Assembly: GCA_019748195.1 (NCBI GenBank) | Contig: JAIEPW010000044.1 | Coordinates: forward strand, 62,001 to 126,000 | Length of the DNA: 64,000 nt | Origin: Bryobacteraceae bacterium | Lineage (GTDB): Bacteria > Acidobacteriota > Terriglobia > Bryobacterales > Bryobacteraceae | Reading direction: 5' to 3' | Part shown: in pieces, positions 3,472-23,218 of the stretch | Position numbering within the stretch: the stretch's first letter is position 1 | Layout of the letters: each line of letters opens with the position of its first letter | Notes under the pieces: model-generated | Database searches by the model: none | What the model was told of the DNA's origin: nothing | What the model saw: the letters and a program-made list of their open reading frames with translations, nothing else | Position numbers and translations under genes: made by a program

Positions 3472-4383
3472 CTAGCTTCTCACCTGCACGCCGTGCGCGT
3501 TTCGCAGCACGCCCACCCCGTACAGCACATCCACTGTGAACTGCTGCGCCAGCGTGTTCGGCTGATAACTCATCGTTACCCGCATGCCGAAGTTCCCCAG
3601 CTCCGCGTACTCCGCGATCGCCCCGGTTCCGGGCAGCGGCTGCGGCAGCCGCCGCATCACCAGCCCCAAGGCCGACTTCGTGAACGCCAGATTGTGCACC
3701 GTCACCGGCGCCGTCCCCGTCTTCGGCACATACTGTGACCGGAAAACGTAGAAGTCCTTGATCTTGCCGACCGCGCCGTCGATCAGCGCCCGCAACCCCG
3801 CGTCCCCCGCGCTCGAGAACTCGCTGAACCGCGGAATCTGCCGCAGTACCGAGTACGACGTCGAGTCCACCACCAGGTACTTCGGTTGGTTCGCCGGGAC
3901 CTTGGCCTCGAACAACGCCGTCTCCGCCGCGTCGATCGTCGCCTCCGTCAGCGGCGTCGCCGGCGCGCCCAGCGACGTGTTCGCCGTGAACTGCCCGTAC
4001 AGGTTCAACAGGTCGAACTCGATCTTCTCCGCCAGCGCAACCATCGCCGGCTGCATGTACAACCGCAGCAGGTCCGGCACCGCCAGCACCTTCGTCACGT
4101 CCGGAACCTGGAACGTCGCCTCCGCGTGCGTGTTCAGCACGATCTGCGCGCTCGCCAGCGCCGGATTCTGCGTTTGAACCGTCCCTCCCTCGCTGATATT
4201 GTTCGCTACCATCGTCGGGGGGATCGGGACGTTGATCGTGTCTCCCGCTTGCGCCAGACTCGGTTCAAAATCGCGATTCACTAGGTTCCCCATTACCAGG
4301 TTCCCCATCAAGGCCGGCAGCGCATCCACTGCCACCAGTTTCACAATCGCGTTCGCTACGTTCGTCGATGTAATCGCTGGCAT
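3472..4383 (-). CDS. Major capsid protein, P22 coat type
   Basis: A 303-residue soluble protein. The N-terminal part has the MGNLVNRDFEPSLAQAGDTI pattern typical of the P22 coat group within the HK97-fold capsid proteins; the middle has NQPKYLVVDSTSYSVL and the end has NFGMRVTMSYQPNTLAQQFT. The start at 4383 has GAGGAG upstream. A scaffold gene precedes it and no prohead protease is visible, as in P22-like systems where scaffold is separate and the coat is not cleaved. A terminator directly follows, fitting the high expression needed for a coat protein. Confidence 0.85.
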   Translation of the reverse strand: MPAITSTNVANAIVKLVAVDALPALMGNLVMGNLVNRDFEPSLAQAGDTINVPIPPTMVANNISEGGTVQTQNPALASAQIVLNTHAEATFQVPDVTKVLAVPDLLRLYMQPAMVALAEKIEFDLLNLYGQFTANTSLGAPATPLTEATIDAAETALFEAKVPANQPKYLVVDSTSYSVLRQIPRFSEFSSAGDAGLRALIDGAVGKIKDFYVFRSQYVPKTGTAPVTVHNLAFTKSALGLVMRRLPQPLPGTGAIAEYAELGNFGMRVTMSYQPNTLAQQFTVDVLYGVGVLRNAHGVQVRS

Positions 4384-13348: not shown

Positions 13349-14188
13349 ATGGGACGCCCGCTTTTGTTGCCTGGTGCCCTCTGCACCGCGTTCCTGGCCC
13401 TCGGGCAGGTTCGTATCGATTCCCCCAGCCTGCATCAGTTCGACAGCGGGCCTCCGCTCACCGTGGAGCACCGTTTCCTGACCGGAGAGCACGTCTTCTT
13501 CCGCTTCGCCGTCACCGGGCTCAAGAAGATCGACAAGAACGACGACGAATTCGTGGAGGCAAGTTGGCGCGCCGAAATCCGCGACCCCGCGGGCACGCTT
13601 CTGGTGGAGCCCCGCGCCGGCAAGATCGCGCAGCAGGTTTTCGCCGAGGACAAGGAATGGAAACCCATTGTGCGCCAGGACTTCCTGATCCCACCGCTGG
13701 CGCCCTCAGGCGTCTACAAGATCTCCATCAAGCTGAAAGATGAGTTCGGCAATTCCGAAGCTTCCGCCGAGATCCCGTTTTCCGTGCGCGGCCATGACGT
13801 GGAACCCAGTGACTCCCTGGTGGTCCGCAACTTCCGCTTCCTGCGTTCCGAGGAAGACCGTAACCCGCTGCGAGACGCTGTATACGCCCGCGGCTCCACC
13901 TTGTGGGCGCGCTTCGATATCGCCGGGTATCAGTTGGGCGCGGGCAACCGCTACGACGTGGAGTACAGCCTGGCGATCCTCAATGCGGAAGGCAAGGAGT
14001 TGTTCGCTCAGGAGCAGCCTGCCGTCGAACAGGGGCAGTCCTTCTACCCCCGGCGCTACACGCCTGGCGCCGTCAGCCTCAGCGTGGACAAGGACACCCT
14101 GCCCGGCAACTATCAGTTGCTGCTGCGGGTCCGCGACCGCTCCAACAATCAGACCGCGGAGCTGCGGACCGCCTTCCGCGTGGAGTGA
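13349..14188 (+). CDS. Exported beta-rich protein of unknown function
   Basis: A 279-residue protein from ATG 13349 with an N-terminal signal peptide (MGRPLLLPGALCTAFLALGQ). The frame is open back to TTG 13325, but the ATG places the signal correctly. The mature part is two or three Ig-like beta domains, with segments such as FFRFAVTGLKKI, SGVYKISIKLKDEFGN and LPGNYQLLLRVRDRSNN, and no cysteines in the mature part. No enzyme motif is visible. It follows the DUF4352-like lipoprotein closely and probably shares its transcript. Its 3' end overlaps the hydrogenase protease gene by 40 bases in convergent orientation. Confidence 0.65.
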   Translation: MGRPLLLPGALCTAFLALGQVRIDSPSLHQFDSGPPLTVEHRFLTGEHVFFRFAVTGLKKIDKNDDEFVEASWRAEIRDPAGTLLVEPRAGKIAQQVFAEDKEWKPIVRQDFLIPPLAPSGVYKISIKLKDEFGNSEASAEIPFSVRGHDVEPSDSLVVRNFRFLRSEEDRNPLRDAVYARGSTLWARFDIAGYQLGAGNRYDVEYSLAILNAEGKELFAQEQPAVEQGQSFYPRRYTPGAVSLSVDKDTLPGNYQLLLRVRDRSNNQTAELRTAFRVE

Positions 14189-14619
14189 CCGGCCAGCGAC
14201 TCCGCCACCACCGCCGCCATTTCCTCCACCACCCGGCAAGCCCGTTCCGACAATCGCTCGCCCGGGCCGAACTGAAACGCGCTGCCAACCACCAGCTTCG
14301 CGGGCGGCGCGTCCCCGTATAGATCCTGGGTGAACGCCAGCAGCGATTCGGGCGAGTGATAATGCGTCAGCAGGCGCCCTGGCGCGGCGGCGGGCGATAG
14401 CGAGGTCACGCGCACCCCGATTTCCAGTCCCGCGTCCAGAAACCACACCTCGGAAGCCTCGGCGATGGCGGACGCCAGCTCCGGAGTCAACTGCTGGCAG
14501 GTGATCACGGTCGCCGTCCGCGGCGGCAGCAGCAGCTCGATCTTCTCCGCCGCCCGGATGCCCAGCGCATCGTCGCCGCGCAGCGGGTTGCCGTATCCGA
14601 TAATCAGCGGCTTCTTCAT
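14149..14619 (-). CDS. hoxW: Hydrogenase maturation protease (HoxW/HyaD type)
   Basis: A 156-residue peptidase family M52 protein. The N-terminus has the diagnostic IIGYGNPLRGDDALG pattern; the aspartate of the DD pair binds nickel of the hydrogenase precursor. A second family element is WFLDAGLEIG near residue 60. It removes the C-terminal peptide of the hydrogenase large subunit once the NiFe(CN)2CO centre is inserted. It is the last gene of the hox operon, 13 bases after hoxH, which identifies its substrate. Overlap of 40 bases with the convergent upstream gene is visible. Confidence 0.9.
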   Translation of the reverse strand: MKKPLIIGYGNPLRGDDALGIRAAEKIELLLPPRTATVITCQQLTPELASAIAEASEVWFLDAGLEIGVRVTSLSPAAAPGRLLTHYHSPESLLAFTQDLYGDAPPAKLVVGSAFQFGPGERLSERACRVVEEMAAVVAESLAGHSTRKAVRSSAV

Positions 14620-14632
14620 GGTTCGCCTCGCG

Positions 14633-16057
14633 TTATCTTCTCCGGACGTCCAGCAAGCCGCCGGAGACGTCGCGCAACTCCACTTCGAGCGGCATTTGCC
14701 CGTAGGCGTGCGTGGAGCAGCTCAGGCATGGGTCGAACGCCCGGATTACCGCTTCCACGCGGTTCAACGCGCCTTCCGTCAACCGCTCCCCGTCCACAAA
14801 CCGCTGCGCGGTCTGCAATACGCCGCGGTTCATCGCCAGGTTGTTGTGCCCGGTGGCGATGATCAGATTGGCCCAGCGCACCAGCCCGTCGCGGTCCACC
14901 TTGTAGTGATGCAGCAGCAGCCCGCGCGGCGCTTCCGCCATCGCGATGCCCTCTTCGGCGTTCACGGCCGCCTGCGCCCGCACATGCGTGTCCAGGATTG
15001 CGGGTTCGTTCAGCAATTGCTCGATGCGCTCCAGGCAGAACAGCATCTCCACCATGCGCGCCTGGTGGTAGTGAAATGAGGCGAGCGCCGGGCCCTTGGA
15101 CAAGGCCCGCAAGTCTTCCAGTTCCCGGTCCGCGCGCGGCGTACCGCACCGCCTGGCGATGTTCAGCCGGGCCAGCGGTCCTACCCGGTAAATGCCATCC
15201 GGATACCCGAACGGCTTGTAATAGGCCGACTTCAGGTACGAATCGTGTTCATTGATCTCGCCGATGTACTCCGGATACGCTCCGGCCGCGAAGCCGTCCT
15301 TCACCACCGCCCCGCCCGAGCCGATTACTCTTGCCGGACCATTGTAATGTTCCAGGTCCCCGTGGTCGTCCACCAGACCCAGGAACAGGGAAGGGAAGTG
15401 CGCGAACGAATCCACTTCTTCCGGGAATTGGGCGAACAACTCCTTGAACTGATCCAGCCGCCGGTTCAGCGCCACCAGCCCCTCCGGCAGCAGATCCCGG
15501 ATCTGATCGCGCTTCTCCGCCGTCAGCGGCGCGCTGACCCCGCCCGGCACCACCCACGCCGGATGGATGCGTTTGCCGCCCAGGATCTCGATGATGGTCT
15601 GCCCCACCTGCCGAAGCCGGATGCCGTCGCGCGCCACTTCGGGATGGGTTTGCGCCAGCCCGAAAAGGTTCCTTCGCAGCGGATCGGAATCCATGCCCAG
15701 CAGCAGGTCCGGCGAGGAGAGATGAAACAGGCTGAGCGCGTGCGATTGCAGGATCTGCGCCAGGTTCAAGATCCGGCGCAGGTGGACCGCCGTCTTCGGG
15801 ACCGCCACCGCGAGAATCGCGTCGCAAGCCTTGGCCGAGGTAATCAGATGGCTGACCGGGCAGATGCCGCAAATGCGCGCCATCAGGGCCGGCATCTCGT
15901 GAAACGGGCGGTTCTCGCAAATCTTCTCGAACCCGCGAAACTGCGTGACGTGAAAGCGCGCGTCCGCCACGCGGCCCTGCTCGTCGAGCTGAATCGTGAT
16001 CTTGGAATGCCCCTCGATGCGCGTCACGGGGTCGATTACCAGAGTTCGTTTCGTCAT
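14633..16057 (-). CDS. hoxH: [NiFe]-hydrogenase large subunit HoxH
   Basis: A 474-residue catalytic subunit. The four nickel-iron ligands are in RICGICPVSH (C63, C66) and DPCLSCSTH (C444, C447). The protease cut is expected after H450, releasing a 24-residue peptide, so the gene encodes a proper precursor. Length and lack of a signal peptide match cytoplasmic group 3d HoxH rather than membrane uptake hydrogenases. ATG 16057 was chosen over an upstream TTG because GGAG lies six bases before it. It starts one base after hoxY ends. It oxidises H2 or reduces protons, exchanging electrons with HoxY. Confidence 0.95.
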   Translation of the reverse strand: MTKRTLVIDPVTRIEGHSKITIQLDEQGRVADARFHVTQFRGFEKICENRPFHEMPALMARICGICPVSHLITSAKACDAILAVAVPKTAVHLRRILNLAQILQSHALSLFHLSSPDLLLGMDSDPLRRNLFGLAQTHPEVARDGIRLRQVGQTIIEILGGKRIHPAWVVPGGVSAPLTAEKRDQIRDLLPEGLVALNRRLDQFKELFAQFPEEVDSFAHFPSLFLGLVDDHGDLEHYNGPARVIGSGGAVVKDGFAAGAYPEYIGEINEHDSYLKSAYYKPFGYPDGIYRVGPLARLNIARRCGTPRADRELEDLRALSKGPALASFHYHQARMVEMLFCLERIEQLLNEPAILDTHVRAQAAVNAEEGIAMAEAPRGLLLHHYKVDRDGLVRWANLIIATGHNNLAMNRGVLQTAQRFVDGERLTEGALNRVEAVIRAFDPCLSCSTHAYGQMPLEVELRDVSGGLLDVRRR

Positions 16058-16058
16058 G

Positions 16059-16604
16059 TCACGCTCCAAACCGGGTCAGTTTTCTCAGTTCCGGCTTCCT
16101 TCCCGCAAGCAACTCCGACACCGCGTAGTGAATTGTCTCCGCCGAAGGAGGACAGCCCGGGATGTACACGTCCACCGGCACCACCGCGTGCACCGGACGC
16201 GCCGCCTGCAGCAGCACCGGGATCACGCCGCGCGGCCGCGGCGCGGGCGCCGTGACGTTCTCGTCGTAAGCCCGGCTGAGCACCGGCTCCACACCGAACG
16301 GATTCCGCATGGTCGGCACGTTGCCCGCCACCGCGCAATCGCCCAGCGACACCAGCACCCTGGTGTGTTCCCGAATGTGCCGGATCTTGCGCAGATCCTC
16401 CTCGCTCGATACCGCGCCCTCCACCAGCGTGATATCCACGATCTCCGGAAAATCCTTGCGGTCCACCAGGGGGCTGTATACCAGCTCCGCCCGCGCCGCC
16501 ACTTCCAGCAGCCGTTCGTCCATGTCCAGGAACGACATGTGGCACCCGGAACAGCCGTCCAGCCACACCGTGGCCAGCTTTGCCTTGGTTACCGGTTCAG
16601 ACAT
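16059..16604 (-). CDS. hoxY: [NiFe]-hydrogenase small subunit HoxY
   Basis: A 181-residue small subunit carrying the proximal [4Fe-4S] cluster. Ligands are C18 and C21 in [10 protein letters not shown]90 in GDCAVAGN and C151 in PGCPPSA. It lacks the Tat leader and extra clusters of membrane-bound hydrogenases, as expected for the soluble NAD-linked type. ATG 16604 has GGGGAGGAAATC directly upstream and overlaps the end of hoxU by 8 bases. It passes electrons between HoxH and the diaphorase subunits HoxU, HoxF and HoxE. Confidence 0.95.
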
Positions 16605-17313
16605 GATTTCCTCCCCGCATCAGCGTCAGATAGGGCAGAAAACGTCTCTGCTTCGCCATCTCTCCCGCCGACTTGCCTTTTTCGCTCAGCGCGCCAGTGG
16701 GACATACCTGGACGCACTTGCCGCAACTGGTGCAACTCGCCGATTCGCCCCACGGCTGCGCCAGATCCGTGATCACCAGGCAGTCCGCGCCGCGGCCCAT
16801 GACGTCCCAGGTGTGCGCGCCTTCGATCTCGCCGCAAACCCGCACGCAGCGCAGGCACAACACACAGCGGTTGTGGTCGGCGACAAACCGGGCGTGGCTG
16901 GAATCCACCGGCAGCGCGGGATAACGGTAGGGGAAGCGGATGTGATCCACCCCCAGCGTTTGCGCCAGCCATTGCAGGTCGCAGTGCCCGTTGGATACGC
17001 ACACGCTGCAAATGTGATTGCGCTCGGCAAACAGCATCTCCACCGTCATCCGCCGGTATTTCAACAGCCGCTCCGATTCGGTTTTCACTTTCATGCCCTC
17101 GGCGATGCGGGTGACGCACGCCGGCAGCAGCCGCGCCGCCCCTTCCACTTCCACCAGGCATACCCGGCAGGCGCCCGCCTCCGGCAAACCCGGCACATGA
17201 CACAGCGTGGGAATGCGGATGTGATGCTCGCGCGCGACTTCCAGAATGGTGCTCTCCTCAAGACCCGACACGTCCTGGCCGTCAATCTGGCACGTAAGAA
17301 CTCGTCCCGCCAT
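16597..17313 (-). CDS. hoxU: Hydrogenase diaphorase subunit HoxU
   Basis: A 238-residue iron-sulfur protein related to the N-terminal part of NuoG. A plant-type [2Fe-2S] domain has C38, C49, C52 and C66. A His-Cys3 cluster motif follows (H100, C102, C105, C111). Two [4Fe-4S] ferredoxin motifs are at C150/C153/C156/C160 and C194/C197/C200/C204. The length equals that of cyanobacterial HoxU. It wires HoxF to HoxY. It begins 2 bases after the hoxF stop and overlaps hoxY by 8 bases, consistent with tight translational coupling. Confidence 0.95.
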
Positions 17314-17315
17314 GG

Positions 17316-18923
17316 CTACCTTCCTCCCGCCGCCAGAGCGGCGTCGTACTCAGGCCGGAAATAGCGCAGCGTGGTGAGCACCGGATTCGGCGCCGACTGC
17401 CCCAGCCCGCACAAGCTGGTGGATTTCACCATCTCGCAGAGGTCCTCAAGCAGATCCAGGTCCGCCTTCGCCGCGCTTCCATTCAGGAACCGCCCCAGCA
17501 ACTCGTGCATTTCCACCGTGCCCATCCGGCACGGAATGCACTTGCCGCAGGACTCCGTCATGCAGAACTCCATGAAGTAGCGGGCCACGTCGATCATCGA
17601 GGACGAATCGTCCATGATGATCATCCCGCCCGAGCCCATGATGGATCCCAGGCTCATCAGCGACTCGTAATCCACCGGCGTGTTCAGATACTGCTCCGGG
17701 ATGCAGCCGCCGGAGGGCCCGCCGGTCTGCACGGCCTTGAAGCGGGCGCCCTCCGGAACTCCTCCGCCGATCTCAAACACGATGTCCCGCAGCGTAATCC
17801 CCATCGGGACCTCGATCAGCCCCGTGTTGGCGATGCTTCCGGTGAGCGCGAACACCTTGGTCCCCTTGCTCCGCTCCGTGCCGATCCCGGCGAACCATTC
17901 CCCGCCGCGTTCCAGAATGGAGGGGACATTGGCATAGGTCTCGACGTTGTTGATCAGCGTGGGATGTCCGAACAGGCCGCGTTCGGCGGGGTACGGCGGA
18001 CGAGGCCGGGGAGTGCCGCGGTTGCCCTCGATCGACGCGATCAGGGCCGTCTCCTCGCCGCACACGAACGCTCCCGCGCCCAGCCGCAGTTCGATGCGCA
18101 GGTTGAAGCGCGTGCCGCAGATGTTGTTCCCCAGCAGGCCGTGCCGCTCGGCGTGCCGCAGGGCGGTCTTCAACCGGGCGATCGCCAGCGGATACTCCGC
18201 CCGGATGTAGATATAGCCTTCCGAAGCACCCACCGCGTAAGCCGCGATCAGCATCCCCTCGATCATCCGGTGCGGATCGCTTTCGAGCACGCTGCGATCC
18301 ATGAACGCGCCCGGATCGCCTTCATCGGCATTGCAGATGATCGTCTTCGGCGTGCCCGGCGACTTCGCCACCGTGCTCCACTTCAAGCCCGTGGGATAGC
18401 CGCCGCCGCCGCGACCCCGCAGCCCGCTGCGCGTGATCTCGCCGATCACCTCCTGCGGGCTCATCTCCGTCAGCACGCGCGCCAGGGTGGCGTAGCCGCC
18501 CGCCGCCAGGTAGTCTTCCAGCCGCTCCGGATCGATGCGTCCGGAGTTCGCCGTCACGATGCGCGTCTGCCGGGCGAAAAACGGCTGCCGGGTGTCCAGG
18601 AACAAGTGCGTCGGCGGCGCCGACCCCAGCGAATCCAGGATCGCCGGAGCGTCCCCCGGAGTCACTCTCTGGTACATCGCACCGTCCGGCTCCCGCCGCA
18701 CCAGCGGACCGGACCCGCACAGGCCGAGGCAGCCGACGCTCTTCACCTGGCACTGATGCTCGCCGATGCCGCGCGCCTTCGCCTCCGCCTCCAGGGCAGT
18801 CTTGATCTCCACGCTCTGCATCGGCTGGCAGCCCGCGGCCGTGCACACCTGCAGGACACAGGACCGGCCCGCCTGGTGCTCCCGCTCCCTCTCCGCCATA
18901 CCGCGAATTTCATCGGGGGACAT
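17316..18923 (-). CDS. hoxF: Hydrogenase diaphorase flavoprotein HoxF
   Basis: A 535-residue NuoF-like NAD(H) dehydrogenase. Residues 1-100 are a thioredoxin-like [2Fe-2S] domain (C27-x4-C32 and C65-x3-C69). The FMN/NADH site has [15 protein letters not shown] (about 168-182), with [19 protein letters not shown] further on. The C-terminal [4Fe-4S] ligands are C459, C462, C465 and C505. ATG 18923 was chosen over ATG 18962 because GGAGG lies nine bases upstream; it overlaps hoxE by 14 bases. It exchanges electrons between NAD(P)H and the iron-sulfur chain. Confidence 0.95.
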
Positions 18924-19419
18924 TGCCGCGAACCTCCGCGAGCTTGCGCTCGACATCGTCACTCGTCACGCGCGCCAAAACCTCCTCGTCCAGCACCACC
19001 ACCGGGGCTAAGCCGCAGGCGCCGAAACAGCGCGCCGTCAACAGGCTGATTTCGCCGTCCGCGCTGGTTTGATCGGGCTTCACCCCGTGCTTTTTCTCGA
19101 TGTCGTCCAGCAGCCGGTTGGCGCCCTTGATGTAGCAGCCGGTGCCCGTGCAAACGATACACGTGTGACGGCCTTTTGGCTTCAGCCGGAAGTGGTGATA
19201 GAAGGTTGCCGCGCCGTAGACCTTGCTGAGCGGCGCATGCAGCGTCCCGGCGATGTACTCGAGTCCCGGACGGTCCAGAAAGCCGAAGGTCTGCTGCAGA
19301 GAATGCAACGCTTCTATCAACGCGTGCGGCTGATTTCCCAGCCGCCGCATGCTGGTGGCCACGATCTTCCAGCGCTTGTCATCCGAGGGGGGATCGGGAA
19401 GTGGGGGTTTTGGCAGCAT
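18910..19419 (-). CDS. hoxE: Hydrogenase diaphorase subunit HoxE
   Basis: A 169-residue NuoE-like thioredoxin-fold protein with one [2Fe-2S] cluster (C90-x4-C95 and C131-x3-C135). The N-terminal DDKRWKIVATSMRRLGNQPHA resembles the start region of cyanobacterial HoxE. It is the first gene of the hoxEFUYH-W operon. The ATG at 19419 lacks a clear ribosome site. If the sigma-54-like element upstream is the real promoter the leader would be only about five bases, so either the mRNA is nearly leaderless, another promoter is used, or GTG 19362 is the start. Confidence 0.92.
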   Translation of the reverse strand: MLPKPPLPDPPSDDKRWKIVATSMRRLGNQPHALIEALHSLQQTFGFLDRPGLEYIAGTLHAPLSKVYGAATFYHHFRLKPKGRHTCIVCTGTGCYIKGANRLLDDIEKKHGVKPDQTSADGEISLLTARCFGACGLAPVVVLDEEVLARVTSDDVERKLAEVRGNVPR

Positions 19420-19435
19420 GGCCTGTTCAGAAGGG

Positions 19436-19450
19436 GCAATCCCTGTGCCA
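19436..19450 (-). promoter_or_regulatory. Sigma-54 (RpoN) promoter-like element before hoxE
   Basis: On the minus strand the sequence reads TTGGCAC-AGGGA-TTGCC, matching the -24/-12 consensus TGGCAC-N5-TTGC exactly. RpoN control of hydrogenase operons is known in other bacteria. The expected start of transcription is near 19424, very close to the annotated hoxE ATG, which is the main reason for caution. Confidence 0.55.
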
Positions 19451-19675
19451 AAACGCGCCCTTTTGCGGACAGCAACATCCCGTTCAACTATCTGGGATTT
19501 CGGGGTTTCTGCCCCAATCTCCGCCTCCCGGATGGGTGAGAAGACTCTCGCAAAAAGATTTCCCCCCAGCGGCCGGCCGTAAGCCCCTACCAGGCCTTGA
19601 GTTCATGCGGGGTTCATTACGGCGGCCGATGGCCAGCGGGTTGCACTGGGAAGGTGCTTGCCAAGGAGATTTTCC

Positions 19676-22600
19676 GTGACACGACCTTTCGTGACCGTCG
19701 ATGGAAACGAGGCCGCGGCCTACGTAGCACATCAACTCAGCGAAGTGATCGCGATTTATCCGATCACGCCTTCCTCGCCGATGGGCGAATGGGCGGATCA
19801 ATGGTCTTCCGAGGAGCGGCCGAACGTCTGGGGTTCGGTTCCCGCCGTCATCGAGATGCAAAGCGAAGGCGGCGCCGCCGGCGCGGTGCATGGCGCGCTG
19901 CAGGCCGGGGCGCTGACCACCACCTTCACCTCCTCCCAGGGCCTGCTGCTGATGATTCCCAACATGTATAAGATCGCGGGCGAGCTCTCGCCCACCGTCC
20001 TTCACGTGGCGGCGCGATCGCTGGCCGCGCAGGGGTTGTCGATCTTCGGCGATCACCAGGACGTGATGGCGGTGCGCGGCGCCGGCTTCGCGCTGCTGGC
20101 CGCGCACTCGGTGCAGGCGGTGATGGACCTGGCCGCCATTTCTCACGCCGCGAGCCTCGAATCGCGAGTGCCGTTTGTCCATTTCTTCGACGGCTTCCGC
20201 ACCTCGCACGAGGTGCAGAAGATCGAACTGCTGACGCCCGAGGATCTGCGGGCGCTGGCGCCGGACGCGCTGGTGCGCGCGCACCGCGAACGCGCGCTGT
20301 CCCCGGATCGCCCGGTGATCCGCGGCACGGCGCAGAATCCCGATGTCTACTTCCAGGGGCGCGAGGCCGCGAACCCTTACTACCTGGCCTGCCCCGCCAC
20401 CGTGGCCCGGCTGATGGGCGAGTTCGAGAAGCTCACGGGCCGGCGCTACCAACTCTTCGACTATCGCGGCGCGCCCGACGCCGAACGGGTGATTGTCATC
20501 ATGGGCTCGGCCGCGCAGGTGGTGGAGGAGACGGTCGACTATTTGGCCGCGCGGGGCGAAAAGGTGGGACTGCTCAATGTTCACCTGTACCGGCCGTTCT
20601 CGGTGGACGCGTTTTCGCGCGCTCTGCCGGCTTCGGTGCGGTCGCTGGCCGTGCTGGACCGGTCCAAGGAGCCGGGCTCGCTGGGCGAGCCTCTCTATCT
20701 CGACGTCATCGCCGCGCTGCATGAATGCGGCCGGCAAATGGGCGTCATCGGCGGCCGCTACGGACTCTCCAGCAAGGGCTTCACCCCCGGAATGGCCGCC
20801 GCGATCTTCCAGGAACTGGGCAAATCGTCGCCGGCCAAGCATTTCACCGTCGGCATCCACGATGACGTTACGCGCCTCAGCCTGACGCACGATCCGGAGT
20901 TCACCGTGGAGCCCGCGGAAACGGTGAAGGCAGTGTTCTTCGGCCTCGGCTCGGACGGCACGGTGGGCGCGAACAAGAATTCCATCAAGATCATCGGCGA
21001 GGATACGCCGAACTACGCGCAAGGCTACTTCGTCTATGACTCCAAGAAGTCCGGTTCCATCACCACCTCCCACCTGCGATTCGGGCCGCATCCCATCCGG
21101 GCGCAGTACCTGATCCGCGACGCCGGATTCGTGGCCTGCCATCAGTTTTCATTGCTGACCCGCACCGATGTGCTCGGCGTGGCCGCGGCGGGAGCCACCT
21201 TCCTGCTCAACAGTCCCTACGGGCCGGAGGAAGTCTGGGAGCACCTGCCGCGCGGCGTGCAACAGGCGATCATCGATCGCAAGCTCAACTTCTGGGTGAT
21301 CGACGCCTATCGCGTGGCCAGGGAGAACGGGATGGGCGGGCGCATTAACACCGTGATGCAGACCTGTTTCTTCGCGCTCAGCGGCGTACTGCCGCGCGAT
21401 CAGGCGATCGCCGCGATCAAGAAAGCGATCGCGAAGACCTATGGCAAGCGCGGCGAGGCCGTGGTGGCCAAGAACCACGGCGCCGTGGACGCGACGCTCG
21501 CGCACCTCGGTCAGGTCGCGGTCCCCGCGGAAGCAACCGCCGGCTTCGACCGCACGCCGCCGGTGCCGCCGGAAGCTCCCAGCTTTGTCCGCGAGGTTCT
21601 GGGAGAAATGATCGCGGGGCGCGGCGACCGGATTCCGGTCAGCAGGCTGCCGGTCGACGGCACCTATCCCACCGGCACTTCACGCTGGGAGAAGCGCAAT
21701 ATCGCCTCTGAAATTCCGGTATGGGAGCGCGGCATCTGCATCCAGTGCGGCAAGTGTGCGCTGGTCTGCCCGCATGGCGTGATCCGCGCCCGCGTCTACT
21801 CCCGCGATCATCTGGCCGACGCTCCCGCCGGGTTTGCCTGGACGGAGCCGAAATGGAAGGAGTTCGCAAGCCAGGCGTACACGCTGCAGGTTGCGCCCGA
21901 GGATTGCACCGGATGCGGCCTATGCGTGGAGGTATGCCCCGCCAAGAGCAAGACGGAAACCCGCATTAAAGCCATCCACATGGAGCCGCAGGCCCCGCTG
22001 CGCGAAGCCGAGCGCCGCAACTGGGAATTCTTCCTGGCGCTTCCGGAGACGCCGCGCGAGGATCTGCACCTGGCGCACGTCAAGGACGTGCAGCTTCTGG
22101 AGCCGTTGTTCGAGTTCTCGGGCGCCTGCGCCGGCTGCGGCGAGACTCCCTATGTCAAGCTGCTCACCCAGCTTTTCGGCGACCGGGCTTTGATCGCCAA
22201 CGCCACCGGCTGCTCCTCGATCTACGGCGGCAATCTTCCCACCACGCCCTACACCACCAACGAAACGGGGCGCGGGCCCGCGTGGTCGAATTCGCTGTTC
22301 GAGGACAACGCCGAGTTCGGACTGGGCATGCGGCTCGCCGTCGACAAGCAGAACGCCTATGCGCGGGAACTGCTGCGGAAGCTAGCCCCGCGCGTGGGGG
22401 CGGACCTGGCGCGCGACATCGAAGACGCGGGGCAGCGCGGCGAAGCCGAAATTCAGGAGCAGCGGGCGCGCATCGGGCTGCTGAAGGAGAAGCTGCGCGG
22501 CTGCGATTCTCCGGAAGCCGCGAACCTGCTGGCCGTGGCCGATTCGCTGGTGCGGCGCAGCGTCTGGCTGGTGGGCGGCGATGGCTGGGCCTACGACATC

Positions 22601-23218
22601 GGGTTCGGCGGCCTGGATCATGTCTTTGCCTCGGGCCGCAACGTCAACATCCTGGTGCTCGATACCGAGGTCTACTCCAATACCGGCGGCCAGATGTCGA
22701 AATCCACTCCGCGCGGCGCGGTGGCCAAGTTCGCCGCCGGGGGCAAGACCACCGCGAAGAAGGACCTCGCGCTGATGGCCATGAGCTACGGCGACGTTTA
22801 TGTCGCGCGCATCGCCATGGGCGCCAACGACACGCAGACCGTGAAGGCGTTCCTCGAAGCGGAAGCCTTTGACGGACCGTCGCTGATCCTGGCCTACAGC
22901 CACTGCATCGCGCACGGCTACGATCTTCGTTTCGGGCTGGAGCAGCAGAAGGCCGCCGTGAAATCCGGCTATTGGCCGCTGTTCCGCTACAACCCCGCCC
23001 TGGCGGGGACTTCGCAGCACCCCTTGCAGCTCGATTCGCGCGAGCCGGCCATGCCGCTCAGCGAGTACGTACTGAATGAAGGGCGATACTCCATGCTCGC
23101 CCAAACCGCGCCGGAGGACGCCGCGCGCCTCATCGAGGAAGCGCAGCGGGATGTGCATCGCCGGTGGAAAACCTATCAGCACTGGGCCTCCATGCCCGTG
23201 CGGGAGCCTGCATCATGA
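19676..23218 (+). CDS. nifJ: Pyruvate:ferredoxin (flavodoxin) oxidoreductase
   Basis: A 1180-residue single-chain pyruvate oxidoreductase, a full-length member of the family. The N-terminal domain has the substrate loop YPITPSSPMGEWAD. Two [4Fe-4S] ferredoxin motifs lie at C688/C691/C694/C698 and C744/C747/C750/C754. The C-terminal thiamine diphosphate domain has CAGCGETPY, NATGCSSIYGG and GGDGWAYDIGFGGLDH (about residue 966). It converts pyruvate and CoA to acetyl-CoA and CO2 and reduces ferredoxin or flavodoxin. GTG 19676 was chosen because AAGGAG lies seven bases before it; an upstream TTG is in the ribosome site. It is divergent from hox and overlaps the next gene by ATGA. Confidence 0.96.
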   Translation: MTRPFVTVDGNEAAAYVAHQLSEVIAIYPITPSSPMGEWADQWSSEERPNVWGSVPAVIEMQSEGGAAGAVHGALQAGALTTTFTSSQGLLLMIPNMYKIAGELSPTVLHVAARSLAAQGLSIFGDHQDVMAVRGAGFALLAAHSVQAVMDLAAISHAASLESRVPFVHFFDGFRTSHEVQKIELLTPEDLRALAPDALVRAHRERALSPDRPVIRGTAQNPDVYFQGREAANPYYLACPATVARLMGEFEKLTGRRYQLFDYRGAPDAERVIVIMGSAAQVVEETVDYLAARGEKVGLLNVHLYRPFSVDAFSRALPASVRSLAVLDRSKEPGSLGEPLYLDVIAALHECGRQMGVIGGRYGLSSKGFTPGMAAAIFQELGKSSPAKHFTVGIHDDVTRLSLTHDPEFTVEPAETVKAVFFGLGSDGTVGANKNSIKIIGEDTPNYAQGYFVYDSKKSGSITTSHLRFGPHPIRAQYLIRDAGFVACHQFSLLTRTDVLGVAAAGATFLLNSPYGPEEVWEHLPRGVQQAIIDRKLNFWVIDAYRVARENGMGGRINTVMQTCFFALSGVLPRDQAIAAIKKAIAKTYGKRGEAVVAKNHGAVDATLAHLGQVAVPAEATAGFDRTPPVPPEAPSFVREVLGEMIAGRGDRIPVSRLPVDGTYPTGTSRWEKRNIASEIPVWERGICIQCGKCALVCPHGVIRARVYSRDHLADAPAGFAWTEPKWKEFASQAYTLQVAPEDCTGCGLCVEVCPAKSKTETRIKAIHMEPQAPLREAERRNWEFFLALPETPREDLHLAHVKDVQLLEPLFEFSGACAGCGETPYVKLLTQLFGDRALIANATGCSSIYGGNLPTTPYTTNETGRGPAWSNSLFEDNAEFGLGMRLAVDKQNAYARELLRKLAPRVGADLARDIEDAGQRGEAEIQEQRARIGLLKEKLRGCDSPEAANLLAVADSLVRRSVWLVGGDGWAYDIGFGGLDHVFASGRNVNILVLDTEVYSNTGGQMSKSTPRGAVAKFAAGGKTTAKKDLALMAMSYGDVYVARIAMGANDTQTVKAFLEAEAFDGPSLILAYSHCIAHGYDLRFGLEQQKAAVKSGYWPLFRYNPALAGTSQHPLQLDSREPAMPLSEYVLNEGRYSMLAQTAPEDAARLIEEAQRDVHRRWKTYQHWASMPVREPAS

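Follow-up and report, generated by a model that had tools for sequence, protein, structure and literature searches.

From which promoter, and under the control of which activator, is the NiFe hydrogenase (hox) operon of a Bryobacteraceae bacterium transcribed? The operon lies in a stretch of 64,000 nucleotides (the window), and a sequence resembling promoters of the σ54 holoenzyme reads toward its first gene. The answer favored here is that this sequence is the -24/-12 promoter of hoxEFUYH-W and works with an upstream enhancer; these are taken as one joint claim, with a probability of about 0.82. The identity of the activator, and the question of whether a wider set of genes shares the same control, are matters of lesser certainty that are taken up in turn.

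The genes that follow the element on the minus strand are, in order, hoxE, hoxF, hoxU, hoxY, hoxH and a maturation protease gene; nifJ and then a dihydroorotate-dehydrogenase-like gene run in the opposite direction (Table 1). The hoxEFUYH order together with the subunit matches assigns the predicted enzyme to the bidirectional (group 3d type) NiFe hydrogenases, and the hoxH translation holds RxCGxCxxxH and DPCxxCxxH, which we take to be the motifs of NiFe large subunits. The correct hoxE start is ATG 19419, with which 12 HoxE N-termini (that of the window and those of 11 relatives) align. A preliminary description of this DNA had offered a choice between a nearly leaderless hoxE message and a start further in, at GTG 19362. 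The second option is unsupported, because a start at that codon deletes a conserved DDKRWKI-like segment and so goes against the HoxE N-termini.

Table 1. Features of the hox-nifJ region, in coordinates of the window.
Feature	Coordinates	Strand	Basis or remark
-24/-12 element of the hoxE promoter (probable), TGGCACAGGGATTGC	19436..19450	minus	exact consensus; TGG-N9-TGC kept in relatives
Predicted transcription start (+1)	19424	minus	inferred from the -12 geometry; 5-nt leader
Putative enhancer (UAS), TGGGGCAGAAACCCCG	19501..19516	minus	50 nt upstream of TGG; inverted repeat TGGG-N8-CCCR
Candidate divergent -24/-12 element, TGGCCAGCGGGTTGC	19630..19644	plus	faces nifJ; 113 nt from the inverted repeat at 19501..19516; pattern only
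nifJ, pyruvate:ferredoxin oxidoreductase	19676..23218	plus, divergent	TIGR02176, 1793.9 bits; start GTG 19676 by inspection
hoxE	18910..19419	minus	start ATG 19419; NCBIfam HoxE, 214.8 bits, just below the cut-off of 224
hoxF	17316..18962	minus	NuoF-family matches below cut-off; operon place and relatives
hoxU	16597..17313	minus	NCBIfam HoxU, 388.4 bits, above the cut-off of 333
hoxY, small hydrogenase subunit	16059..16604	minus	Vhu/Hyd small-subunit matches below cut-off; operon order
hoxH, large NiFe subunit	14633..16069	minus	NiFe large-subunit matches below cut-off
hoxW-like hydrogenase maturation protease	14149..14619	minus	TIGR00072, 58.8 bits, above cut-off

The consensus of σ54 promoters is TGGCAC-N5-TTGC, with its GG and GC 10 bp apart. 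The minus strand from 19450 to 19436 reads TGGCAC-AGGGA-TTGC toward hoxE, with GG-N10-GC spacing, so that the full match oriented toward the hox operon that the preliminary description reported is exact. Its distance from hoxE, given there as 5-15 bases, has to be corrected: 16 bases separate the end of the element at 19436 from the ATG at 19419, and the element occupies the positions 17-31 bases upstream of that ATG. This is the sole exact match in the window; dinucleotide shuffles of the window contain 0.10 matches on average (at least one match in 10 of 100 shuffles).

In the genome as a whole, the exact consensus is not enriched (10 matches, as against 18 for a reversed control pattern), and this favors the reading in which TGG-N9-TGC arose by chance and an ordinary upstream σ70 promoter serves hoxE. 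Since the exact consensus does no better than chance genome-wide, the case is carried by position and conservation. (Of the ten exact matches, only the one at hoxE directly precedes a called gene, as judged by eye; a match on L027 is also intergenic, but there a small ORF, likewise found by eye, starts 175 nt downstream.) Among the 55 ORFs that a simple caller finds in the window, two have a TGG-N9-TGC no more than 60 nt from the start, namely hoxE and nifJ. A scan of 19380-19720 for the σ70-type consensus, which covers one promoter type only, gives no match, and the position of TGG-N9-TGC is kept in all nine of the hoxE-first operons described next. A chance match beside a σ70 promoter is accordingly regarded as very improbable, and the hoxE promoter as one that would depend on σ54.

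Conservation can be judged from a HoxF search of 237 genomes of the family, for which the loci of the best 30 matches were taken. These loci are of two kinds: 12 are of the window's kind, defined by a HoxE with the DDKRWKI-like segment, and 18 are of another kind. Nine of the 12 operons, from six genera and with the window included, start with hoxE. All nine of these have TGG-N9-TGC within 60 nt upstream of the ATG (mononucleotide-shuffle probability 0.016 per upstream), its T being at -30 or -31 in seven, at -34 in one and at -47 in another; the comparison with hox operons of relatives that had been proposed as a check on the element thus bears it out. In the other kind, 2/18 operons have it before hoxE. 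Named genomes outside this set supplied 79 further hoxE loci, of which 63 carry no acidobacterial label and two have incomplete upstreams; a near match is present at 2 of the 79, and one of these matches overlaps the start region. Four genomes, the three of genus g11 and G027, have hoxE behind other hydrogenase genes of a larger operon, and here the element precedes the first gene of the long operon in 4/4. Promoters in G228, G252 and G257 were added later through pattern searches and provide no independent test because it is the pattern itself that found them. The relatives compared are non-independent as well, though six genera are represented. An excess in the family of a further pattern, TTTGGMA-N7-TGCA, which the window's own site does not fit, is supportive only: hand-summed counts are 171 matches as against 93 for the reversed control in 37 family genomes (61 genomes searched); for a sister family (18 genomes) they are 37 and 66, respectively.

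An inverted repeat, TGGG-N8-CCCR, lies upstream of the -24 sequence in 8 of the 9 hoxE-first operons of the window's kind (dinucleotide-shuffle probability 0-0.047 per upstream); the hoxE upstream of G036 is without it. The gap between repeat and TGG is 50 nt in the window and in G227, and 69-72 nt in six others. Genus g11 has just GGG-N8-CCC, in G127 and G128, and no repeat is found in G010 or G027. Among the 18 hoxE genes of the other kind, 4 have the repeat, each time with no matching element; it is absent from all 77 hoxE upstreams examined in other named genomes. Repeat and element occur together in 8/9 hoxE-first operons of the window's kind, compared with 0/18 for the other kind and 0/77 for the other named loci.

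The combination of repeat and element (the composite pattern) has 147 matches in the 237 family genomes, as against 56 matches of the reversed control. For an analysis of gaps, 31 composite sites were picked by hand as repeat-like. Their gaps cluster at 49-54, 60-65 and 70-73 nt, with a best period of 10.75 that no random draw over 46-75 equals in strength (0/2000) and that holds when the two hoxE sites among the 31 are removed. Gaps near 50, 61 and 72 nt differ by whole helical turns, the phasing expected of an enhancer acting by looping. As a check on hand-picking, 30 loci were chosen by program; of these, 3/4 repeat-like sites and 5/26 others are promoter-positioned, the corresponding figures for the hand-picked set being 20/25 and 4/6. 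The repeat at 19516-19501 would accordingly act as the enhancer of the hoxE promoter. Alternatively, a repressor might bind it as an operator, or an FNR/CRP-like activator of a different promoter might do so, with TGG-N9-TGC forming part of that complex: palindromic and located at about -84 to -106, the repeat would suit other factors as well, and the g11 operon includes a CRP-like gene (named by eye). Against such an operator stand the GG-N10-GC spacing, which is exactly of σ54 type, the variation of gaps over 50-72 nt by whole helical turns, as looping predicts, and the absence of the repeat-element pair from those 77 other hoxE upstreams; together these make it quite improbable.

Placing C(-12) of the proposed σ54 promoter at 19436 puts +1 at 19424, with 5 nt (AGGCC) before the AUG, and a leader of that length has no room for a Shine-Dalgarno site. 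Eleven promoters, that of the window included, were laid out in this way. In nine of them the spacing from C(-12) to ATG is 15-16 nt (the start in L315 is placed by eye) and the leader is 4-5 nt long; in G227 it is 8 nt, with AAGGA near the ATG, and in G171 it is 21 nt, with GAGGA. If standard geometry holds, conservation of this promoter extends to a near-leaderless hoxE message, and this half of the choice offered by the preliminary description is the one that survives. It is rather unlikely, though well within consideration, that the promoter is correctly placed and its mRNA is not near-leaderless, either because transcription starts some bases off or because hoxE is translated by another route. 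The +1 position comes from geometry, and the longer leaders of G227 and G171 fit such a reading; the fixing of the ATG by HoxE N-termini and the constancy of spacing in nine promoters do not.

Leaders of another sort are seen in g11, where about 95 nt (L063 ~4211-4305; also L112 and L111) separate the σ54 site from the first gene of the combined hydrogenase operon. This leader is near-identical in the three genomes despite diverged flanks and has a 12-bp stem; searches gave no Rfam match and no viral match, and it has no extra folding stability (z +2.27). The window's genome also has two hypD genes (C44:4118-5161 and C148:127160-128200), one of them on a short contig among genes of unrelated type. 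In its main hyp cluster the only match lies 63 nt before the called hypB frame (named by eye), inside the preceding gene.

A candidate σ54 element also faces nifJ, in a much weaker case than that for hoxE. The GTG start of nifJ is preceded by AAGGAG, and the candidate element would leave a 20-nt leader that holds this sequence. Upstream of nifJ in G227 and G228 the repeat appears in reverse (TGGGTGAAATGCCCCA, TGGGTGAAAAGCCCCA) at -85; TGG-N9-TGC is absent from both upstreams, and by eye there is CGG-N9-TGC 15 nt before the ATG. In these two genomes (L105 and L113) hox and nifJ keep the neighborhood that they have in the window, separated here by two inserted genes, and in G227 a dihydroorotate-dehydrogenase-like (DHOD-like) gene follows nifJ too, as it does in the window.

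The genes next after composite sites include hoxE and genes for 2-oxoacid:ferredoxin oxidoreductase, cytochrome bd subunit I, NapC-type multiheme cytochrome, radical SAM enzyme and citrate synthase. An ADP-forming acyl-CoA synthetase gene also follows such a site, behind a DUF1858-like gene (below cut-off), as do ferredoxin, acyl-CoA dehydrogenase-like and pyruvate carboxylase genes that were named by eye. Many of these belong to anaerobic or low-potential energy metabolism. There are also misses: L319 is without a called gene, the sites of L313 (pyruvate carboxylase) and L320 are more than 300 nt away from the next start, and the first gene at L291 is without an assigned identity. These sites suggest, at odds somewhat short of even, a previously undescribed σ54 regulon of the family with a role of the FNR type. 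A PAS-domain sensor of redox state or oxygen, acting at repeats like TGGGGCATnTCACCCA, would switch on hydrogenase, 2-oxoacid:ferredoxin oxidoreductases, ferredoxin, ADP-forming acyl-CoA synthetase, bd oxidase and multiheme cytochromes, and hoxE messages would be near-leaderless. No regulon is visible in the window's own genome: loosening the repeat there adds no composite match to the one at hoxE.

The genome of the window (G000; 5.83 Mb, 99.67% complete) encodes σ54: it has one PF04552 match, of 194.7 bits, with the RpoN box VTRRTVAKYRE. The lack of rpoN, which the preliminary description had named as grounds for rejecting the promoter, is thus not what is found. Proteins of NtrC type, for which a search had also been suggested, are present, with 19 PF00158 matches (13 at full strength and two more cut by contig ends). 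The HoxA-type regulator suggested along with them is not found beside the hox operon, none of the 19 being on the window's contig (C149).

At about even odds, the best candidate for the activator of hoxE is a PAS-AAA+-Fis protein, referred to as PAS-bEBP (G000:C115:50619-51935; PF00158 224.7 bits, PF02954 56.9 bits, and PAS domains). It is 64% identical to a G227 protein, to which it is the only G000 match at E<=1e-110. One G227 copy adjoins the DHOD-nifJ-hox cluster; a second points away from a composite site ~1 kb off, one called ORF lying between them. No composite site is seen around the G000 gene. In 15 of 15 aligned sequences the cysteines at 57, 63, 66 and 70 (C-x5-C-x2-C-x3-C) are invariant, and these may sense redox or oxygen through a metal cluster. 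The loop is GAFTDA, not GAFTGA, in all 15; the region of the recognition helix varies hardly at all, in keeping with a constant binding site. PAS-bEBP matches are found in 108 of the 237 family genomes: in 28/32 with "strict" composite sites versus 80/205 others (Fisher P 2e-7). The "strict" pattern was set after the sites had been seen, and the window's own repeat does not fit it; with a post-hoc pattern and related genomes, such P-values are optimistic. Of 16 listed genomes with a hox promoter of the window's kind, 14 have PAS-bEBP, and the two that do not (G061 and G257) are about 80% complete.

The σ54 promoter and its enhancer could be rightly identified and the activator be a different one, namely the response regulator (GAFTGA-type) of a histidine kinase with a CXXCH heme motif, or some other NtrC-like protein. 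In G171 such a pair (regulator loop GSFTGA) shares the intergenic region of hoxE and is transcribed away from it. Relatives of the heme kinase at 56-73% identity are found in 53/237 genomes (own count), and the kinase-regulator system is present, by a hand-typed list, in 24 of the 34 genomes whose composite sites are repeat-like, with an odds ratio above that of PAS-bEBP. This alternative deserves to be taken seriously and is nonetheless unlikely: the kinase has no match at E<=1e-60 in the window's genome, whose 99.67% completeness bears on the point, and G010, G127, G128, G227, G228 and G249 have only paralogues of ~36-44% identity, yet the hox promoter is present in them. L007, one of the two G000 regulators closest to that of G171, was considered and set aside; its loop is GAFTSA and its recognition helix is different. 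Heme-motif kinases (with CXXCH in several) and GAFTGA-type regulators recur together at L106:5091-8037 and at L322-L330, often with an archaemetzincin-like gene (identified by eye) between them.

With PAS-bEBP as activator, the proposed sequence of events would be as follows. Bound to the inverted repeat at 19516-19501, the bEBP would loop over ~50 nt and open the promoter formed by σ54 RNA polymerase at the -24/-12 element. The hoxEFUYH-W operon would then be transcribed from ~5 nt before the hoxE AUG, yielding an mRNA almost leaderless for its first gene. The activator, a one-component PAS protein, would sense redox state or oxygen via C-x5-C-x2-C-x3-C, perhaps with a metal cluster, and the hox operon would be switched on together with other low-potential or low-oxygen energy genes. 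Should such a regulon be borne out, it would provide a testable account of the way in which falling oxygen makes uncultured acidobacteria switch on their hydrogen and ferredoxin metabolism; it would also single out one candidate sensor protein and define a set of σ54 promoters with an almost leaderless first gene.

Control of hydrogenase genes by σ54 is itself already known; the regulon and its sensor are the newer and less certain part. FhlA of Escherichia coli is a one-component bEBP that, with σ54, switches on the anaerobic hydrogenase genes of formate hydrogenlyase; it senses formate and has GAF domains, and its enhancer and hydrogenase group differ from those of the hoxE case. A literature search joining σ54 or RpoN with Acidobacteria or Bryobacter had nothing on the subject among the matches listed, and by word search the main text of a broad σ54 survey does not name Acidobacteria (PMC12316311). 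In Sinorhizobium meliloti a single study records 171 leaderless transcripts and 112 starts with σ54 motifs (PMC3616915); in the portions of that report drawn on here, the leaderless starts are not tied to σ54 promoters. One-component σ54 regulons of Desulfovibrio vulgaris have been reconstructed comparatively, from bEBP sites and -24/-12 elements (PMC4641369). As far as the text of that work goes, its regulons share with the present one PAS one-component activators, a listed activator with GAFTDA, and pyruvate and energy targets; they differ in phylum, sites and genes, and the word "hydrogenase" does not occur in the main text (PMC4641369). Closest in its target is the soluble hydrogenase (SH) promoter of Cupriavidus necator, which is driven by σ54 with HoxA (PMC4377017). 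An NAD-coupled NiFe hydrogenase operon served by σ54 and an NtrC-family activator would be common to both. HoxA is a response regulator (PMC4377017); the candidate in the Bryobacteraceae bacterium is of the one-component PAS type, comes from another phylum and would act at a promoter with a predicted near-leaderless first gene.
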